Shown one piece after another: positions 19,332 through 29,875 of a stretch of 64,000 nucleotides of DNA. Made by a program: the position numbers and the translations under genes. Location of the stretch: positions 253,127 to 317,126 of the forward strand of contig RPGP01000040.1 of NCBI GenBank assembly GCA_004193555.1, given 5' to 3'. This DNA is from Desulfobacteraceae bacterium Eth-SRB1. GTDB taxonomy: Bacteria > Desulfobacterota > Desulfobacteria > Desulfobacterales > ETH-SRB1. Each line of letters starts with the position of its first letter. Position 1 is the stretch's first letter. The notes under the pieces are model-generated. The model saw only the letters and a program-made list of their open reading frames with translations, did not search any database and was not told where the DNA came from.

Positions 19332-19375
19332 AAATAAATCTTTTTGGTTTTGCGGTGAATAAAAAAAAGGAAATA

Positions 19376-20521
19376 ATGAAACCGGCAATTAACACAGGCG
19401 AACATTTTATCACGGGCGATGTTGCATGCGCCGAAGGCGCTATTGCGGCAGGCTGCCGTTTTTTTGGAGGATATCCAATAACTCCTGCCACAGAAATCAC
19501 CGAGCATCTGTCTGCCAGGCTTCCAGGAGTTGGCGGAACCTTCATACAGATGGAAGATGAAATTGCTGCAATAGCCTCCGTGCTGGGCGCTTCGTGGACA
19601 GGCGTAAAGAGCATGACCGCCACTTCCGGGCCGGGTTTCAGCCTCATGATGGAAAACATCGGCCTTGGTATCTGTACAGAAACACCCTGCGTTGTTGTAA
19701 ATGTGCAGCGTGTCGGACCTTCAACAGGTCTTCCCACACAGGCCGCCCAAGGTGATATGATGCAGGCACGATGGGGTTCCCACGGAGACTATGAAATTAT
19801 TGTGCTTTCGCCGTCCTCCCCGCAGGAGATTTTTTATCAGACAATCACCGCTTTTAACATGAGCGAAACATACCGGTTGCCTGTTCTCATTTTGGCTGAT
19901 GAGATAGTCGGCCATATGAGTGAAAAGGTTATTATACCGGACGCAAAGCATATCAAAACCGTATCGCGTTCCAGGCCAAAAGGCAGGAAAGACCGCTTTA
20001 AATTATATGAGCCCGGGCCAAACGGGGTTGCTCCCATGCCTGCCATCGGAGAAGGTTATAATATTCATGTAACCGGGCTTACTCACGATACAAAAGGCTA
20101 TCCGGCAATGACGGTGGACACTCAAAAAGAGATGATGGCGCGGCTGACAGGGAAGATTCAAAATAACCTTAAGGATATAATAAAGACTGAAAGCTATCGG
20201 CTGGATGATGCTGAAATAGCCATTATATCTTATGGCATCTCAGCGCGAACAAGCCTGTCCGCTGTTGATAAGGCGAGAAGGCAGGGTATAAAGGCTGGAC
20301 TTTTACGGCTTATTACCATCTGGCCTTTTCCAGAGGATCAGATCCTAAAGCTGGCTGAAAAGGTAAAAGGATTCGTAACAGTAGAGATGAATCTTGGCCA
20401 GATTCATCTCGAAGTAAAGAGATGCGCCGGCGGCAGAGCTCCAGCATTTTTAGTCGGGCATCCGGGCGGAACAATCATCTCGCCCGACACGGTTGTCAAA
20501 GTATTGCAGGAGGCCTTTTAA
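19376..20521 (+). CDS. korA: 2-oxoacid:ferredoxin oxidoreductase, alpha subunit
   Basis: 381 residues. The pyrimidine-binding half of the TPP enzyme that oxidatively decarboxylates 2-oxoacids (2-oxoglutarate most likely) to acyl-CoA with ferredoxin. Conserved blocks: GCRFFGGYPITPATEI, QMEDEIAAIASVLGASWTG, TATSGPGFSLMMENIG and NVQRVGPSTGLPTQ. The ATG at 19376 has AAGGA five bases upstream; an in-frame GTG at 19355 is a weaker start. korB begins four bases after its stop. 2-oxoisovalerate or another 2-oxoacid remains possible. Confidence 0.92.
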   Translation: MKPAINTGEHFITGDVACAEGAIAAGCRFFGGYPITPATEITEHLSARLPGVGGTFIQMEDEIAAIASVLGASWTGVKSMTATSGPGFSLMMENIGLGICTETPCVVVNVQRVGPSTGLPTQAAQGDMMQARWGSHGDYEIIVLSPSSPQEIFYQTITAFNMSETYRLPVLILADEIVGHMSEKVIIPDAKHIKTVSRSRPKGRKDRFKLYEPGPNGVAPMPAIGEGYNIHVTGLTHDTKGYPAMTVDTQKEMMARLTGKIQNNLKDIIKTESYRLDDAEIAIISYGISARTSLSAVDKARRQGIKAGLLRLITIWPFPEDQILKLAEKVKGFVTVEMNLGQIHLEVKRCAGGRAPAFLVGHPGGTIISPDTVVKVLQEAF

Positions 20522-20524
20522 CCG

Positions 20525-21355
20525 GTGGCGAAAAAAACACCCAAACATCCTTTAGACGACCTTATCCGAAAGGATCGTATCCCGCATATCTGGTGTCCGG
20601 GATGTGGGATCGGAACGATTTTTTCTTCGTGCCTGACAGCGATAAAGGAAAGCGGCATTGATCTGAAAAAGTTCGTGATGATCTCCGGGATCGGGTGTTC
20701 GGGTCGTGCAGCCGGTTATGTCAATCTGGATTCATTCCATACCACCCATGGACGGGCTATTCCCTTTGCCACTGGAGTAAAGCTTGCAAACCCTGAGCTG
20801 AATGTGATTGTATTCAGCGGAGATGGAGATCTTTTTGCTATCGGAGGAAATCATTTTATCCATGCAGCGCGTCGTAATGTTGATATCACGGTAATCTGTG
20901 TAAACAATTTTAATTACGGCATGACAGGAGGTCAGGTCGCGGCAACCACGCCAAACATGGCTAAAACCACAACGACCCCTTTTGGCAACCCGGAAACTCC
21001 TTTTAATCTTCCTCTTATGGCATATGCAGCCGGAGCAACATACGTCGCAAGATGGACAATGCTTCACTCACGTGACCTCACAGAATCAATAAGTGAGGCT
21101 ATTTTAAAAAACGGGTTCTCCTTTATTGAGGCGCTTTCACCCTGTCCTATTAACTACGGGCGGCGCAATAAATTAAAACCGCTTGATCAATTAAAACTGT
21201 ATCAGGAGAAGACTATTATAAAAAATGACGCAAAGCCCACCGAACTCGATATTAATTTTGAAAAGGGCGTTGTTCTGGGCAAGTTTGTGGATATAGAACG
21301 TCCCACATACGGGGATAGTTACAACAAAATATGCAGGCCGGATAAGCTGGAATAG
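20525..21355 (+). CDS. korB: 2-oxoacid:ferredoxin oxidoreductase, beta subunit
   Basis: 276 residues, the TPP-diphosphate-binding subunit. The N-terminus has WCPGCGIGT (Cys ligands for the proximal cluster region). The TPP/Mg motif is FSGDGDLFAIGG with the NNFNYGMTGGQ completion. Start is GTG at 20525-20527, preceded by AGGAGG inside the korA 3' end (20509-20514). It couples with KorA to form the catalytic core. Confidence 0.93.
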   Translation: MAKKTPKHPLDDLIRKDRIPHIWCPGCGIGTIFSSCLTAIKESGIDLKKFVMISGIGCSGRAAGYVNLDSFHTTHGRAIPFATGVKLANPELNVIVFSGDGDLFAIGGNHFIHAARRNVDITVICVNNFNYGMTGGQVAATTPNMAKTTTTPFGNPETPFNLPLMAYAAGATYVARWTMLHSRDLTESISEAILKNGFSFIEALSPCPINYGRRNKLKPLDQLKLYQEKTIIKNDAKPTELDINFEKGVVLGKFVDIERPTYGDSYNKICRPDKLE

Positions 21356-21375
21356 TTAAAAGTGCCTAAAGTTAT

Positions 21376-21460
21376 TGAATCGCTTCGCTCTGCCGGTTTA
21401 TAAATTGGCAGAATTCCTTATTCAAAATTCGATGTTGGACGTTCGATGTTGGACGTTCAT
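21376..21460. repeat. ACATCGAAC-family repeat, partial copy
   Basis: Carries the TCGCTTCGCT core, then CTGCCGGTTTATAAATTGGC and the right arm with two GATGTTGGACGTTC units. The left arm of the full element is missing. It lies between korB and korC. Confidence 0.7.
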
Positions 21461-21513
21461 TATTTAAAATAATCACCTACAGCCTGAATAACCTGAATAC
21501 TTAGTATCAAACA

Positions 21514-22119
21514 ATGACTGATAAACAGAAAAAGAAAAAAGCAAAAAAAGAGGTCATCATAACAGGATTCGGTGGCCAGGGTATTATAATGGCAGGCCGT
21601 ATAATTGGAATGTCGGCTGCTTTAGGCGATCATATGCATAGTGTCTTTACGCAGTCATACGGACCGGAATCACGTGGTGGCGCATGCAGCGCACAGGTGA
21701 TAATTTCAGATGCCCAGATCCATTATCCGTATGTTATGCGCCCGGATATACTGATATGTATGTCTCAGGGCGGGTATGATAAATTTATCAGCGAGATAAA
21801 ACAGGAAGGCATTTTGCTTATTGAGCGTGATCTGGTACGTCCCGGTGCATTAAAAAGAAATTTCTTTTCCATTCCCGCCACACGCATGGCCGAAGATTTA
21901 GGCCGCAAGATGATGGCCAATATAATTATGGTCGGGTTTTGCGTATCGGTCACAAAAGTAATTTCGAAAGATGCGGCGCTGGACAGCGTCGCAAAATCGG
22001 TGCCAAAGGGCACAGAGGAAGTCAACATTAGAGCCTTTAACAAAGGCTATGATTATGGCCTTGCAATACTTAAAGGACGCGGAAAAAAGGCTGCCGGCCA
22101 AACAGGAGTAACTGGATAG
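21514..22119 (+). CDS. korC: 2-oxoacid:ferredoxin oxidoreductase, gamma subunit
   Basis: 201 residues. The N-terminal KEVIITGFGGQGIIMAG is the gamma-subunit (CoA-binding) signature, followed by SYGPESRGGACSAQV. With KorA, B and D it completes the four-subunit enzyme. A Lys-rich N-terminal extension (MTDKQKKKKAKKE) precedes the fold. It is separated from korB by a 158-base spacer holding a dispersed repeat, so translation is not coupled, though co-transcription is likely. Confidence 0.92.
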   Translation: MTDKQKKKKAKKEVIITGFGGQGIIMAGRIIGMSAALGDHMHSVFTQSYGPESRGGACSAQVIISDAQIHYPYVMRPDILICMSQGGYDKFISEIKQEGILLIERDLVRPGALKRNFFSIPATRMAEDLGRKMMANIIMVGFCVSVTKVISKDAALDSVAKSVPKGTEEVNIRAFNKGYDYGLAILKGRGKKAAGQTGVTG

Positions 22120-22367: not shown

Positions 22368-25300
22368 ATGAAACGGCCTAAGAACAGACTTCACAGGGTG
22401 ATTGTTATCGGTGCGACACCTGCCGGGATAATGGCAACCAACAAGTTTGGAGAGCTTGGCATTCCTGTTACACTGGTTGATTCTGATTATGACCTTAATT
22501 TAAAACTTTCCTGTGATGAATATAAACTGAAATCAGGCATTCCCCTCAATCATGCCCATCGGCCCGGACTTATCAGAATTTTAAGGAATCCGTCCATTCG
22601 AACTGTCCTGCCGGTTGAGATAACCTCGATAAAGCACAGCCCGCAGGGATTCAGGGTATGCATGAACCGCCTGGAGACATATATTGATACGGATCAATGC
22701 ACATTATGCGGCCGCTGCGTTGAAATCTGTCCTGTTTCGATTCCCGAAGGCGGAAAGGCTATAAGTATTAACAGCAGACGAAGCCTTCCAGGCCGGCCGG
22801 TTATTGATAAGAGGCGCACCCCCCCTTGCAGAGAAGACTGTCCCCTTGGTGTTAATGTGCAAGGTTACGTCGTTCTTGCAAAGGCAGGCAGGTTTAAAGA
22901 AGCCCTTGCCCTTATCAGAGAAGATAACGTGCTTCCCGGCATATGCGGGCGTATCTGTACCCACCCTTGCGAAAAGGCCTGCAGAAGAGGCGAACTGGAC
23001 GATCCAATTGCAATTAGAGATATAAAGCGGTTTTTAGCCGACTATGAACTTTCTCATCCGGAAAAGGAAAAAAAGAAATCATATACAAAAAATGAGCAGG
23101 AATTGAAGCAAAAGAGACCTGAAAAAATTGCTGTAATAGGCTCTGGGCCGGCCGGCCTCGCCGCTGCCGCTGATCTGGCACGGTACGGTTATGCTGTTAC
23201 GATTTTTGAGAAGGAAAAGAAGGCAGGGGGGTTGCTGCGTTATGGAATCGGGCCACATCGCCTGCCAAGGAATATATTAGATATTGAGATTGAGCATATA
23301 AAAAAAATGGGAGTAAGTTTCGCAACATCCCATCCGGTTAATTTAAACAAAGATATAAAAAGGCTTCGGAAAAATTTTGAGGCCGTTGTTATTACAACAG
23401 GAACCTGGTCGGACCGGATGCTTGGTGTGCCAGGGGAAGAATTAAAAGGCGTTGAAGGATGTCTGTCTTTTCTTAAAAAGCTTTACTCTGGCAGGATAAA
23501 AAAACTTAAGAAAAGAGTAGCTGTGATAGGAGATGGGAATGCCGCATTTGATCTGGCGCGGGCGCTTGTTCGCATTGGCGCCGGCGTTACAATAGTATCG
23601 TGGTTTCCGATGGATTTAATTCCTGCAGATAATGAAGAGATCAAAGCAGCGCAGGATGAGGGCATTTCTATTAAAGATTGCACACAGGTTACCGCATTTT
23701 CAGGCAAAAAAGGCAAATTTGACCGAATGCAATGCGCGCATACAAAACCGGGAGAGCCTGATGCGCAGGACATACCATGGCCTGTTATTATTAAAAGACG
23801 CAAGCCCTTTGAGCTTAAATTTGATATGGCTTTTGTTGCTGTTGGTCAGGCAGGTATATTTAAAGGCAAGAGAAGTATCGGTGGATTAAATATTACAAAC
23901 TACGGCTTTATCGAAGCTGATAAATCCCTTTGTACAAATCTTTCCGGGATTTATGCTGCAGGAGACGCTGTTTCAGGCCCTTCTTCCGTAGTCCAGGCTA
24001 TGTCTTCCGGCAGGAGGGCTGCTTGTACGATTCACAAAAGTTTTGCCGTAGACCAGGATAAAGATATCAGGATTTTAAGGCCGGAGCGCAGGGATTATCC
24101 TCAACTTCCGGAAAATGTCCCTTTGCTGTCAAGACCTGTCATGCCTGAAATGCTGCCGGATGATCGCAGAAAAAACTTTTCAGAAGTTGCGCTCGGCTTC
24201 AGCGAGCAGGATGTTGCCTTTGAAGCCGGGAGATGCCTTCAATGCGGTGTCTGTTCAGAGTGCCTTCAATGTGTTGAGGCCTGTGGCGCAAACCGCGCAG
24301 TGAACCATTACGCGCCCTGTGAAGAAATCATTGAAAATGCCGGTGTGGTTATTATAGCGGATCCGGAAATAGTTCCTCCGATCAGGGGAGAGGATGTAAT
24401 CAGAGCCTATGCCCCGAAAAACGCAAAGGCGGATATTTACGCCGGGATATTGAGAGGTTTTGCTTCAGCGGCACAGGCCATGATACTGCTTGGCGGAACC
24501 TCGCAAAGACCAAAAGGGCACGGACTTTCCTTTTTTCCTCCTGATACAGGGCTGTCTCCTGATATCCGTCTTGGAGTTTTTGTTTGCAGGTGCAACGATT
24601 CCCTTGGATGGCTCGAGGGTATGAGCGAATATGTTAAGGAACTGGAATCTCACAGCGATATTGTTCATGCTGAAACAATATCATCTGCCTGCATAACCGA
24701 TGGATCTTCGGCTATTCTAAGAACAATTCGTGAAAAAGGCATTACGCGTGTGGTTCTTGCATCATGTGTATGTTGTCCTTTGAATTTTGTATGCAGCGCA
24801 TGCACTGATCAGAGAAGCCGGCTGAAAGATGCCCTGTTTACAGGTACTGGAATAAGCCGTTCCATGGTGGAGACATGCAATTTAAGGGGAGAAGTACTGC
24901 GGCTTGTTGAAAAAGATCCTGCCGTTGCCATGAAAAGATTCGCCGGATTGATAGATCGTTCTATCGGCCGTGCGCGAAGATTGAAGCCTCTTCCGGCCCT
25001 GGTGAGAAACTACAATTTTACTACCGCAGTGATCGGTGAGTCTGAACCGGCTGTTTCCAGCGCTTTTACACTTGCTGAGGCCGGTATGGATGTTTTTTTG
25101 TTTGGAACCTCGAAGAAACCGTTGACCGGGATATTAGAGCATCAGAATATTCATAATTTTGAAGGTTCAACGGTAAAAGGGTTTAGCGGGACATTAGGCG
25201 ATTTTCAGGTGTTTATCAATATGGGCGGTTTTCGTCATACAATACGTGTTGGAGCGGTTATTTTAGGAGAAAGATCAAGAAAAAAAATTCAATATATACA

Positions 25301-25766
25301 CCAGGAAGGTCTGCCAAGCCGTATTGTTGAATCGTCCCTGCAGAAAGATGGCGTGTTAGGAATACCGTTTTTCTACCCCGGAGCAACCTCAATTTCAGGT
25401 CTTTTTTTAGCTGACCCGTCAGCTATTAATGTATCTAAAAGAAAAAAAGGCGCTGCCGCCGCTGTACAGGCAGCAGCTATTATGCCCCGTGGTCCGCGTC
25501 AGAGCAAAGGTTTTACGGTGGTGGTAGATGAAAACTTATGCCGCTGGTGCGGACGCTGTATTCAGGTTTGTCCATATCAAGCTATTACGATGCAAAGAAA
25601 CGGCGCTGACAGATGGTCTGCATCGGTTGATGAAGCTCTGTGCAAGGGCTGCGGCAACTGTATCTCGGTATGTCCGTCAAATGCTGCCGACAGTCCATAT
25701 CGCAATCAGGCTTATCTTGAGCGGGCAATTAAGGAACTATTGGAAGGCCCGGAATTGTATGAATAA
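22368..25766 (+). CDS. Multidomain FAD / Fe-S oxidoreductase (GltD-like + HdrA-like parts)
   Basis: 1132 residues, cytoplasmic. Order: FAD/NAD-like Rossmann start (VIVIGATPAG, residues 10-20); [4Fe-4S] motif CTLCGRCVEICP at 111-122; GltD-type cysteine domain CREDCPLG ... CGRICTHPCEKAC (154-205); GltD-like FAD/NADPH module with GSGPAGLAAA (~258) and GDGNAAFDLARA; a Cys-rich CLQCGVCSECLQCVEACG (~625); an HdrA-like stretch GVFVCRCNDSLG (~740) with SCVCCP; and two C-terminal [4Fe-4S] motifs CRWCGRCIQVCP and CKGCGNCISVCP (~1058-1115). Probably an NAD(P)H-linked flavoprotein feeding the adjacent Hdr proteins. Substrate unknown. It overlaps the next gene by eight bases. Confidence 0.8.
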   Translation: MKRPKNRLHRVIVIGATPAGIMATNKFGELGIPVTLVDSDYDLNLKLSCDEYKLKSGIPLNHAHRPGLIRILRNPSIRTVLPVEITSIKHSPQGFRVCMNRLETYIDTDQCTLCGRCVEICPVSIPEGGKAISINSRRSLPGRPVIDKRRTPPCREDCPLGVNVQGYVVLAKAGRFKEALALIREDNVLPGICGRICTHPCEKACRRGELDDPIAIRDIKRFLADYELSHPEKEKKKSYTKNEQELKQKRPEKIAVIGSGPAGLAAAADLARYGYAVTIFEKEKKAGGLLRYGIGPHRLPRNILDIEIEHIKKMGVSFATSHPVNLNKDIKRLRKNFEAVVITTGTWSDRMLGVPGEELKGVEGCLSFLKKLYSGRIKKLKKRVAVIGDGNAAFDLARALVRIGAGVTIVSWFPMDLIPADNEEIKAAQDEGISIKDCTQVTAFSGKKGKFDRMQCAHTKPGEPDAQDIPWPVIIKRRKPFELKFDMAFVAVGQAGIFKGKRSIGGLNITNYGFIEADKSLCTNLSGIYAAGDAVSGPSSVVQAMSSGRRAACTIHKSFAVDQDKDIRILRPERRDYPQLPENVPLLSRPVMPEMLPDDRRKNFSEVALGFSEQDVAFEAGRCLQCGVCSECLQCVEACGANRAVNHYAPCEEIIENAGVVIIADPEIVPPIRGEDVIRAYAPKNAKADIYAGILRGFASAAQAMILLGGTSQRPKGHGLSFFPPDTGLSPDIRLGVFVCRCNDSLGWLEGMSEYVKELESHSDIVHAETISSACITDGSSAILRTIREKGITRVVLASCVCCPLNFVCSACTDQRSRLKDALFTGTGISRSMVETCNLRGEVLRLVEKDPAVAMKRFAGLIDRSIGRARRLKPLPALVRNYNFTTAVIGESEPAVSSAFTLAEAGMDVFLFGTSKKPLTGILEHQNIHNFEGSTVKGFSGTLGDFQVFINMGGFRHTIRVGAVILGERSRKKIQYIHQEGLPSRIVESSLQKDGVLGIPFFYPGATSISGLFLADPSAINVSKRKKGAAAAVQAAAIMPRGPRQSKGFTVVVDENLCRWCGRCIQVCPYQAITMQRNGADRWSASVDEALCKGCGNCISVCPSNAADSPYRNQAYLERAIKELLEGPELYE

Positions 25767-27342
25767 TTATAATGTCATATTAATGTTGTGTAACTGGGGA
25801 GCGCATAGCGCGTATCAAACGCTACAAGATACGGGTGCTGAAATCCCCCCGGAGATCAGTATGGTTCGTATTCCATGCACCGGAAGAATCAGCAAATCGC
25901 TTCTGTTCAAGGCTTTTGAAATGGGCGCAGATGGAGTTGCTCTTGTAGGATGTGAACCCGGGACCTGCCGTTATGGAAGCGGAACAGCCGCTGCCATAGA
26001 AAATACCGGGGATATGCGGGAGATTCTCGATCTTCTGGGATTAGGAAAAGATCGCCTGCGCCTTGCTACATTTTTGCCGGACGATTCAGAACCGTTGCTG
26101 CAATTTCTCAAAGATTTTTGCAGCGAAATACGAGCGCTTGGCAAAAGCCCTGTAAAGCATGTAAAAGCAGCGAAACCGGAGCCGGCGACTAAAAAAGCTC
26201 TTTCAGATATTGTTTCTTCACATGATGTTTTTGCGTGTCAGGATTGTGGAAAGTGCACATCAGCCTGCCCCCTTACACTGGCCGGCAAGCAGTTTTCACC
26301 ACGAGCTCTGGCCGGTTCTATTATTGCCGGGGATATTGATTCGCCTGAGGTACAGGATGATATCTGGGCCTGTCTTACCTGCGGCCTTTGTTATGACCGG
26401 TGTCCTTCTGCTGTTAACTTCCCTGAGTTTATTCGTGACCTTCGTCATTTTTCTAAGCAACGCAATTTAGACGGCCATGAGGCTCATGGAGGCTTTTTCC
26501 AGTCTTTGATGCGCGCCATGACATCTTCCGGCCTTAAAGCCAGGCGCTGGGACTGGCTTCCAGATAATATCCGTATCGATAATGAGAGTAAAATTCTGTT
26601 TTTTGGCGGTTGCGCGCCTTACTTTGACATTTTTTTCAGAAGCCATCTTGGGGTTGAAACCTGTAATATTATAACCGACAGTCTTCGCCTCTTAAATTTT
26701 TTTGATATCCGGCCGGCGCTGCTTCAGGATGAACGTTGTTGCGGACATGACCTGCTCTGGTCAGGAGATAAGGATAATTTTTTAAAGCTTGCCAGGTTAA
26801 ATGTTGATTTAATCCACAGTCTTGGAGTTGAAGAGGTTGTTACCGCCTGTCCGGAGTGTTACAGAACCCTGGTACATGACTATAATGAATACGGTGTAAA
26901 GTTAAATTGCAAGGTTACGCACATCTATGATTTGCTTGAAACAGAGATAGACAAAGGCGCTGTTGATTTTAAAAAAATTGATAAAAAGCTTACCTTTCAG
27001 GATCCATGCCGCCTTAGCAGGTTCGAACAACGGGAAGATCTTCCAAGAATGTTGCTGAAACGGCTTAAGCCGGGCGGTTTTCAGGAAATGTCCGACAAAG
27101 GAAGCGCCGCAATATGCTGCGGAAACAGCGCATGGACAGGGTGTGACTCTTTCAGCAAAGCTCTTCAGGTAAAACGTCTGAGACAGGCTAAGGAAACAGG
27201 GAGCAACCTCCTTGTAACAGCCTGTCCCAAATGCCAGATCCATCTACAGTGCGCCATGGAAGATCCGTTTTTAGGAGAAGAACTGAAAATGGAAATGATG
27301 GACCTGACAGGCCTGCTTGCAAAGACTATTTACTGGGAATGA
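25759..27342 (+). CDS. MvhD-HdrC-HdrB fusion protein
   Basis: 527 residues. Residues ~1-140 are an MvhD domain (LCNWGAHSAYQTLQ, RIPCTGRISKSLL, GCEPGTCRY), which holds a [2Fe-2S] cluster and hands electrons to HdrA. Next is an HdrC-like dicluster part: CQDCGKCTSACP (~155) and CLTCGLCYDRCPS (~200). The C-terminal half is HdrB/HdrD-like with two CCG regions (CCGHD ... ACPECYRT, and DPCRLSRF ... CCGNSAW ... ACPKCQIHL), the site of disulfide reduction. The ATG at 25759 overlaps the upstream stop; the longer open frame before it is read-through of the previous gene. Thus three Hdr functions sit in one chain. Confidence 0.85.
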   Translation: MNNYNVILMLCNWGAHSAYQTLQDTGAEIPPEISMVRIPCTGRISKSLLFKAFEMGADGVALVGCEPGTCRYGSGTAAAIENTGDMREILDLLGLGKDRLRLATFLPDDSEPLLQFLKDFCSEIRALGKSPVKHVKAAKPEPATKKALSDIVSSHDVFACQDCGKCTSACPLTLAGKQFSPRALAGSIIAGDIDSPEVQDDIWACLTCGLCYDRCPSAVNFPEFIRDLRHFSKQRNLDGHEAHGGFFQSLMRAMTSSGLKARRWDWLPDNIRIDNESKILFFGGCAPYFDIFFRSHLGVETCNIITDSLRLLNFFDIRPALLQDERCCGHDLLWSGDKDNFLKLARLNVDLIHSLGVEEVVTACPECYRTLVHDYNEYGVKLNCKVTHIYDLLETEIDKGAVDFKKIDKKLTFQDPCRLSRFEQREDLPRMLLKRLKPGGFQEMSDKGSAAICCGNSAWTGCDSFSKALQVKRLRQAKETGSNLLVTACPKCQIHLQCAMEDPFLGEELKMEMMDLTGLLAKTIYWE

Positions 27343-27433: not shown

Positions 27434-29875
27434 ATGGAAAAAAAGGTTGCGGAAAAAATTTCAACAAACTCGGGTCAGATCGCGCGAATAGGTGTTTATA
27501 TATGTCACTGCGGTTTGAATATCGGCAGGACAGTAAACTGCAAATATGTTGCTGATAAAACCTCGGGTATTGACGGCGTTGTTGTTTCAAAAGATATTGG
27601 ATATGCGTGTTCCGAACCGGGTCAACAGGAAATGATAGCAGATATTCTTGAACATGGATTGGACCGCATCGTGGTAGCCTCTTGTTCGCCCAGGCTTCAT
27701 GAGGCTACTTTTCGACAGATGATACAGTCCGCGGGGCTAAATCCTTATCTTCTGGAAATGGCCAATCTTCGTGAACAATGCAGCTGGGTTCACATGAATG
27801 AACCTGAGGCCGCAACACAGAAAGCTGTAAGTCTTGTAAAAATGGCAATTTCCAGGGTGCGTCTGCTTTGCCCGCTTGCTGTGAGAACAATACCGCTAAC
27901 CAAACGCACACTTGTAATCGGCGGGGGAATAGCCGGCATTCAGGCGTCGCTTGATCTTGCAGACAATGGTTATGAAGTAATCCTTGTTGAAAAAAAGCCG
28001 TCAATCGGCGGCACAATGGCCCAGCTTGATAAGACCTTTCCCACCATGGACTGTTCCATCTGAATTCTCGGACCCAAGATGACGGATGCCGGTCGGCATC
28101 CTGGAATAACACTTCACACCATGAGCGAGGTTGTCGATATTCAAGGCTATGTCGGCAACTTTGATGTAAAGATTTTAAAGCGGGCTCGTTATGTTGACGA
28201 GAAAGAATGCACTGCGTGTGGTGACTGCGCAGAAGCCTGTCCTGTTGTTCGTCCTGACGAATTTAATGTGGGTCTTTCTTCACGCAAGGCAATTTATACA
28301 CCATTTCCCCAGGCTGTTCCTTCTGCCTATGTTATCAATATCAATGAGTGTCTTGGGCACAATCCTTCTGTTTGCGCAAAATGTCTAAATGCCTGCGAAA
28401 AAGGCTGCATCAATTTCCACATGTCTGATGAAGAAATTGTTGAAAAGGTTGGATCAATCGTTGTGGCCACCGGGCTGGAACCATATGATCCCACAGAGCT
28501 TGACGAATACGGATATACACGGTTTGAAAATGTATTAACCAGCCTTGAATTCGAACGTCTTATAAATGCAGGAGGGCCGAGCAAGGGTGAACTGGTTCGT
28601 CCTTCTGATAGAAATTTGCCTGAATCCATCGGTTTTATACAGTGCGTTGGGTCCCGTTCCGCCAGAAAAGGCAGCGGTTACTGTTCCAATGTATGCTGTA
28701 TGAACACGATAAAAAGCAGTCTTGTTCTCAAGGAGCATTATCCTGATATAAATATAAAAGTTTTTTATATCGATATTCGCGCATTCGGAAAAGGATTCGA
28801 AGAGCTTCACATGCGGAGCAGGAGATTGGGTGTAAACTATTTAAGAGGTTTGCCCGGCACCGTTGAAGAGCTGGCCGATAAAAGCCTGCGGGTTGCTGTC
28901 GAAAATACGTCATCAGGCGAGCTGGAATATCACAAGCTGGATATGCTTGTACTTGCCATTGGAATCAAACCGGCTCAAAGCACTCAGAAAATTCGTGAGA
29001 TGCTTGGTCTCCAGTTATCTTCGGACGGATTCTTTCTGGAAGCGCATCCGAAACTTCTGCCGGTGGATGCTGCAACGCGAGGCGTTTTTTATGCCGGATG
29101 CGCTGAGGGCCCAAAAGATATCAAAGAGAGCGTTACCCAGGCAACCGCGGCCGCAGGACGAGCCATACGCCTGATGCATAAAGGGGAGATAAGCACAGAG
29201 CCGATTACATCTGAAGTGATTGCTGATAAATGCAATTCCTGCGGGAAATGCGCTGAAGTGTGCCCTTATAATGCAATTACCGTTGATGTGAAGAAAAAGA
29301 CTCCCGCTGTAGTAAATGCAGCGGCATGCACCGGCTGCGGGACATGTGCTGCCGAGTGCCCCTTTGGCGCTATTATCATGAACCATTTTACTGATGAACA
29401 GATTATAAACCAGATAGATGCCTTGATGGAAGACAGACCACAGGAAAAGGTTCCTGTTTTTGCCTGTAACTGGTGCTCATATGCCGGAGCCGATTTTGCA
29501 GGTGTTTCACGCCTCCAGTATCCTTCCAATATGCATATCATCCGGGTTATGTGTTCGGGCCGCGTGAACAATAAATTCATATGGCATGCTTTTCTAAAAG
29601 GAGCGCCGGTCATCCTTGTAAGTGGATGCCATATCGGCGATTGCCATTACATTGATGCCAATCACTGGACAGAAAAAAGGGTTAAAAAAGTATGGAGGCG
29701 TATGGAAAAGCTTGGCATCAGGCCTGAACGTTTACAGCTTGAATGGATCAGTGCGGCAGAAGGTGTTCGTTTTGCAGAAATAATGCGGAAAATGGAAAAT
29801 TTGCGTTGCCGGGTTTCGAGCAGGGAGATAGCGGACACAATCAAGATTCTGAAAAGCAGAAAAAAGAAGCCTTAA
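27434..29875 (+). CDS. hdrA: HdrA-MvhD fusion, selenoprotein (UGA read as Sec210)
   Basis: 813 residues if the in-frame TGA at 28061-28063 is read as selenocysteine. HdrA is the flavoprotein that bifurcates electrons in heterodisulfide reductase-type complexes. Upstream: VYICHCGLNIG, the Rossmann motif IGGGIAGIQASLDLA and TFPTMDCSI. The TGA falls where HdrA has the conserved Cys of the CSxC-ILxPKM block; ILGPKM follows in the same frame. Four further [4Fe-4S] motifs (CTACGDCAEACP, CAKCLNACEKGC, CNSCGKCAEVCP, CTGCGTCAAECP) and a C-terminal MvhD domain (ACNWCSYAGAD, CSGRV, GCHIGDC) complete it. A candidate SECIS hairpin is at 28084-28101. A nonsense mutation is possible but unlikely. Confidence 0.85.
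28084..28101 (+). promoter_or_regulatory. Candidate bacterial SECIS hairpin
   Basis: GGATGCC, loop GGTC, GGCATCC: a perfect 7-bp stem whose stem begins 20 bases after the in-frame TGA. The GGUC loop matches the G-rich apical loop that SelB recognises in the E. coli fdhF element, and the distance is within the bacterial range. It lies inside the hdrA coding sequence. Confidence 0.75.

Follow-up and report, generated by a model that had tools for sequence, protein, structure and literature searches.

A probable selenocysteine-containing HdrA-MvhD fusion protein with a SECIS-type hairpin in Desulfobacteraceae bacterium Eth-SRB1

In the 64,000-nucleotide stretch of DNA from Desulfobacteraceae bacterium Eth-SRB1 that was analysed here (the window), a gene of the hdrA2 type on the plus strand (27434..29875) contains a TGA codon at 28061-28063, raising the question of whether this codon ends translation, reflects a sequence error or encodes an amino acid. 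The codon shares its phase with the reading frame on both sides, and translation with TGA read as selenocysteine (Sec, U) resulted in an open frame of 813 residues with U at position 210, in the context PTMDCSIUILGPKM. Standard-code ORF calling (table 11), in turn, broke the gene into two ORFs (27434-28063 and 28079-29875). An initial annotation of this DNA had described a frame open in the same phase on either side of the TGA and had expected standard annotation to split the gene, and both statements were borne out.

The encoded protein joins an N-terminal HdrA part, with FAD and ferredoxin domains, to a C-terminal MvhD/FlpD part. The HdrA2 model NF040770 matched with 1193 bits, above its cut-off of 1100, and covered residues 18-797 of 813; the FlpD model PF02662 matched residues 675-788 of the same polypeptide with 168 bits. 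In the same line, residues 17-667 aligned with 5odc_A, the HdrA of the solved complex 5ODC, and residues from about 671 to 789 with MvhD-type chains. With its FAD-type and Fe-S domains and its homology to 5odc_A, the protein may be an electron-bifurcating HdrA. Within an ungapped alignment block, residue 210 fell on Cys197 of 5odc_A, and with Cys207 it forms a CxxU motif directly after the FAD-binding Rossmann segment. The earlier view that this site is normally Cys in HdrA agrees with Cys197 and with the orthologues lacking the TGA, and the position on Cys197 of 5ODC chain A makes it reasonable to locate Sec210, as proposed, close to the bifurcating flavin.

A Sec reading presupposes the matching machinery, and the initial annotation had named selA, selB, selC and selD as the genes to look for. 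All four were present in the genome of the window (G000; 3.34 Mb, 52 contigs, 98% complete): selA (599 bits), canonical selB (382 bits), selD (373 bits, with an in-frame TGA of its own) and a tRNA-Sec (76 bits) with anticodon TCA and a G before CCA. Among the matches listed for 13 relatives, tRNA-Sec appeared in at least ten (none for G011, G013 and G105) and a SelB-type match in at least 12 (none for G123, and fragments only in G047, G105 and G109); the missing matches may reflect fragmented contigs. Elsewhere in the genome, a multihaem cytochrome-like ORF on contig C40 (L066 6544-7860, minus strand) contains a TGA in frame within a GGGUG motif, with a GC-rich hairpin after it, and adjoins a rhodanese-like ORF, making it a candidate selenoprotein, with families assigned by eye.

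Comparison with relatives placed the in-frame UGA at a position where homologues carry Cys or Sec. In a search of the family (17 genomes), all four matches that were at least 83% identical, lay outside the genome of the window and covered residue 210 carried one TGA, and 47%-identical matches in G015 and G001 had Cys at the column. At the level of the order, 123 of 389 genomes matched the gene at E<=1e-220, and the matches covering residue 210 contained at least one TGA in all but six cases; these six and one match with three TGA codons had Cys at the Sec column. An alternative Sec codon was accordingly rejected, as the matches with TAG or TAA and no TGA (G177, G044 and G137) and the three-TGA match in G284 all had Cys there. 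The codon itself was read directly in 68 loci, comprising the window gene, four family loci, 26 order-search loci and 37 of 40 stretches hand-picked by rank and, deliberately, as divergent, stop-free or odd-stop matches; the three others, L143-L145 (46-47% identical), had Cys at the column and were excluded from the count. This yielded 64 TGA and four Cys codons (three TGT and one TGC), the remaining order-search matches contributing stop counts only, with the codon itself not read. Complementarily, a separate collection of named loci carried TGA in 80 of 80 cases (79 by pattern, and L241 read individually). In accordance with the expectation that HdrA homologues would show Cys or U at this column, nearly every orthologue read had TGA and the others had Cys.

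These data bear directly on the two readings in which the TGA does not encode an amino acid. If it were a real stop, the locus would be a pseudogene or would encode a 209-residue N-terminal piece followed by a 598-residue protein starting at 28079, as the two ORFs called under table 11 would suggest; however, dozens of genomes with 47-93% identity share this TGA, which falls midway through the FAD domain, and a covarying hairpin accompanies it. Decay is unlikely because a decaying gene would not retain both halves as well as the codon, and we consider termination at this codon highly improbable. A sequencing or assembly error for TGC or TGT might be suspected in an assembly of 52 contigs with a Cys codon one base away, but independent assemblies share the TGA, including those of the cultured Desulfocicer vacuolatum DSM 3385 and Desulfobulbus elongatus DSM 2908, leaving an error as the most improbable of the explanations. 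Further cultured carriers of the TGA are Desulfobulbus rhabdoformis, Desulfogranum marinum, Desulfoprunum benzoelyticum and Desulfoferrobacter suflitae.

Downstream of the codon, a spacer of 20 nt (28064-28083) leads to a putative bacterial SECIS on the plus strand (28084..28101), assigned by conservation, covariation and a check of the sequence. The perfect 7-bp hairpin with a GGTC loop 20 bases past the TGA, noted initially, was recovered exactly: GGATGCC (28084-28090) pairs with GGCATCC (28095-28101) around the apical loop GGTC (28091-28094). How often such a structure occurs by chance was assessed for a perfect 7-bp stem with a loop of 3-6 nt starting 10-35 nt downstream. It arose in 0.99% of 20,000 synonymous recodings of the gene, after 2.3% of the gene's other codons and at 1.25% of plus-strand positions in the window, so one such hairpin is, on its own, no more than mildly unusual. 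When compared with synonymous recodings, the folding energy of the window gene was not significant (p 0.15); across the 64 Sec genes the mean z was -1.24, with p<=0.05 in 18 of 64. This weakness for single genes probably has its origin in the conserved protein sequence, which already promotes a degree of pairing; synonymous-site entropy and tree-corrected covariation took the place of folding energy as the main tests. Rfam gave no gathering-level match in the window and no family that fits the hairpin; one sub-threshold match close to the site was taken for chance. With a hairpin that is mildly unusual and a folding energy that is not significant, the selenoprotein case rests on conservation and covariation among relatives.

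The hairpin was compared across both locus sets, which overlap and contain 63 and 74 distinct sequences (union 114; hairpin counts for the named collection are based on 79 loci, L241 being omitted). Six pairs and the GGTC loop were found in 111 of the 114 distinct sequences; the exceptions among Sec genes were L156 (50% identical), which has no stem in the register, one gene with a GGGC loop and one with five pairs. In the 64 Sec genes, the stem and loop codons were nearly invariant (GAT, GGT and CAT, each in 63 of 64), while the surrounding Pro, Gly and Ile codons do vary synonymously. When synonymous entropy was calculated over 802 five-codon windows, the five lowest values all began at residues 215-219, on the hairpin, making its codons the most synonymously constrained stretch of the gene. 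The single freely varying pair, tallied on the 112 sequences with the GGT codon, was C-G in 41, T-A in 54, T-G in 17 and C-A in none. This pair couples an Ala/Val change with a silent change in an Arg codon, a coupling that is unexplained by protein selection. On a tree of 63 genes, its two bases change 13 and 17 times, and a sign test on independent tree pairs found changes in the same direction and never in the opposite one (median p 0.0156, range 0.0156-0.0625); the tree was built rapidly with FastTree from 63 proteins, without removal of the Ala/Val column itself.

The four Cys orthologues had all lost the GGTC loop; of the six stem pairs they retain 6, 5, 3 and 3, a pattern expected of decaying SECIS remnants. 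Since one of them, L142 in G177, still has six possible pairs, pairing alone cannot separate Sec from Cys genes. The element lies shortly downstream of the UGA and within the coding region, and the comparative data point to selection at the RNA level and thus to a conserved RNA element. The resulting comparative picture of the HdrA2-type SECIS comprises a stem of 6-7 bp, a GGTC loop, a distance of 20 nt after the UGA and real covariation.

Overall, the sel genes, the Sec/Cys column and the conserved hairpin support the initial claim that this HdrA-MvhD fusion is a probable selenoprotein. We estimate a probability of roughly 0.93 that UGA 210 of the HdrA2-type fusion is decoded as selenocysteine, a reading drawn from genome comparison. 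Canonical SelB, bound to the hairpin 20 nt past the UGA, would then deliver Sec-tRNA-Sec to the ribosome.

The genome of the window also encodes what appears to be a second UGA-reading system. A tandem repeat at C40:940-944.3 kb (L050 13500-17850; G000:C40:940.0-944.3 kb) holds two further tRNAs with a UCA anticodon, and a divergent selB (selB*) comes immediately after each of them. The selC* tRNA-Cys and SelB* are reportedly the subject of Mukai 2017 and Vargas-Rodriguez 2018. Both tRNAs of the repeat are identical and tRNA-Sec-like, with U before CCA (U73) and an opal anticodon; their T stem has four pairs and one unpaired A, and A1 pairs with U72 (stems assigned by eye). One selB* is intact (640 aa, 30% identical to canonical SelB) and the second copy is frameshifted. 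These marks match those published for the opal selC* tRNA-Cys of Desulfobacterales, for which the available excerpt of the source gives selB* downstream and a further gene, cysS* (PMC7609411). The genome of the window differs from the published system in that the module is tandem-duplicated with one selB* frameshifted and in that no cysS*, a CysRS without the anticodon-binding domain, was found there: the two CysRS above the cut-off span nearly the entire model, at model positions 1-465 and 1-458 of 466. In the wider survey, ARAGORN placed a selC*-type tRNA in 27 of 30 selB*-type loci, always with anticodon TCA, and all 28 selC* tRNAs displayed had U ahead of CCA, with GGAGG or GGAGC immediately preceding the T loop.

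Several observations concern the surroundings of this module. The minus strand nearby (L050 1467-7532) encodes a YedE-type selenium transporter (TIGR04112, 481 bits), the selD that contains an in-frame TGA, and small ORFs resembling sulfur carriers, the last identified by eye. Formate dehydrogenase genes adjoin the module, and their presumed Sec site, located by eye, is Cys-coded. The module is followed by a double-cubane-cluster reductase (NF040772, 469 bits) with an activase (L050 11464-13512); the same type of reductase follows selB* in L164, L166, L167, L171 and L173, and cysS-like genes do so in L175, L178 and L182. These assignments come from 25 loci, some of which end early, with families judged by eye from translations, and a functional link of the reductase to selC*-selB* is possible. 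One of the two CysRS above the cut-off is a fusion of cysteine synthase to cysteinyl-tRNA synthetase (765 aa), encoded on the minus strand at L065 2252-4549 (G000:C1:153.75-156.05 kb). It was rejected as a stand-in for cysS*, as it occurs in 319 of the 389 genomes of the order (E<=1e-180) versus roughly 33 with a selB*-like match.

The presence of this module raises the alternative that the selC* tRNA and SelB* insert cysteine at the UGA for part or all of the time, for example when selenium is scarce. Two selC* copies with an intact selB*, tRNA features that fit the published ones and the tolerance of Cys at the Sec column in four orthologues would be compatible with this. Furthermore, no second close HdrA2 that could act as a Cys-coded backup was found in the genome of the window, unlike in M. 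maripaludis, which has HdrAU and, according to the part of the report available, switches to Cys isoforms without selenium (PMC11097638). A more distant Cys-coded HdrA (44% identical, C1:147666; Cys at the Sec column), however, might act as a backup, and the cysS* partner is missing from the matches in this genome. A selB*-like match of at least 410 bits was present in 14 of the 123 genomes that match HdrA2 and absent from the other 109, with hairpins of the same class in genomes of both kinds (these counts and the 33 above were made by eye, and a contig-broken selB* could escape the E<=1e-90 threshold). G009, G012 and G013, for instance, carry the same TGA and hairpin class and a canonical selB that is 77% identical, with no strong selB* match; tRNA-Sec was present in G009 and G012, and none was found in G013.

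Because hairpins of the same class occur in genomes with and without selB*, the hairpin fits canonical SelB, and because 109 of 123 HdrA2 genomes lack a strong selB* match, the canonical Sec system appears to be enough. We consider a cysteine reading of the codon unlikely and infer that Sec, not Cys, would be inserted most of the time; cysteine insertion at the HdrA UGA would have a minor or conditional role at most, and even that seems doubtful. Similarly improbable is a scheme with two readings of one UGA, namely Sec by SelB and tRNA-Sec with selenium and Cys by SelB* and selC* without it. If true, a single gene without a close Cys-coded copy would yield both Sec-HdrA and Cys-HdrA. Since the genome combines a Sec system with a Cys-type UGA system, it is directly testable which SelB reads which hairpin.

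Other HdrA copies were seen in the course of this comparison. A second HdrA region in the genome of the window (L051 1132-4518; G000:C29:166.6-170.0 kb) has Sec at the same column and a hairpin with a GGTC loop, and in its downstream MvhD-type segment a TGA occupies a site where the window protein has Cys. In G064, a Sec-HdrA2 (L127, C1:1763953-1766340) and a Cys-HdrA2 (L165, C1:1778174-1780012) share a contig, the Cys copy lying about 12 kb from the selC*-selB* locus of that genome.

The genes upstream on the same strand suggest the pathway in which selenocysteine-containing HdrA may act. Three ORFs (19355..22119; POR_N/PFOR_II, TPP_enzyme_C and POR domains) encode alpha-, beta- and gamma-type subunits of a 2-oxoacid:ferredoxin oxidoreductase. 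They are followed by a pyridine-nucleotide-disulfide oxidoreductase of 1132 aa with several 4Fe-4S domains (22368..25766; Pyr_redox_2, Fer4_20 and Fer4_7) and by an MvhD (FlpD) fused to a 4Fe-4S domain and two CCG (HdrB-type) stretches (25762..27342; FlpD, Fer4_8 and CCG). The latter, an MvhD-HdrBC-like fusion, is the likely electron partner of the Sec-HdrA-MvhD protein, which probably works with it and with the 2-oxoacid:ferredoxin oxidoreductase in cytoplasmic flavin-based electron bifurcation or confurcation. Most likely, the FAD for bifurcation or confurcation in a cytoplasmic Hdr complex would be carried by Sec-HdrA, with the ferredoxin oxidoreductase feeding the complex. Sec210 may tune how electrons pass between the flavin and the iron-sulfur clusters. 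The locus lends support to the idea that, in this Desulfobacterales-related lineage, a core subunit of electron bifurcation requires selenium; standard-code ORF calling splits its gene in two.

Sec-containing HdrA is already known in these bacteria. The initial remark that it had been proposed in deltaproteobacteria was right but understated, as it was reported there in 2006, 2009 and 2016. In the parts of these reports available, seven Sec-HdrA are given for Syntrophobacter and four for Syntrophus, alongside those of other bacteria (PMC1794560), Desulfobacterium autotrophicum HRM2 has Sec hdrA1 and hdrA2 (PMC2702500), and hdrA of Desulfococcus multivorans is among five genes with a UGA upstream of a SECIS (PMC5109826). 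For methanogens, the corresponding excerpt states that gene prediction truncates Sec-HdrA (PMC12054007). As far as these sources describe them, the HdrA proteins of Syntrophobacter, Syntrophus and HRM2 resemble the window protein in being UGA-encoded Sec-HdrA of sulfate-reducing or syntrophic deltaproteobacteria associated with MvhD (PMC1794560, PMC2702500). HdrA1-HdrA3 of HRM2, however, are encoded by two or three genes, whereas HdrA and MvhD form one polypeptide in the window (PMC2702500), and hdrA1 of Desulfococcus multivorans colocalises with a separate mvhD1, in contrast to the fusion gene found here (PMC5109826). The C-terminal MvhD extension is shared with Methanosarcina HdrA2 (NF040770; PMC6019823), for which the available text of the source does not describe Sec, while the window protein combines Sec with a bacterial gene cluster. 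Together, these comparisons make the window gene a further, well-supported example of Sec-HdrA in these bacteria.
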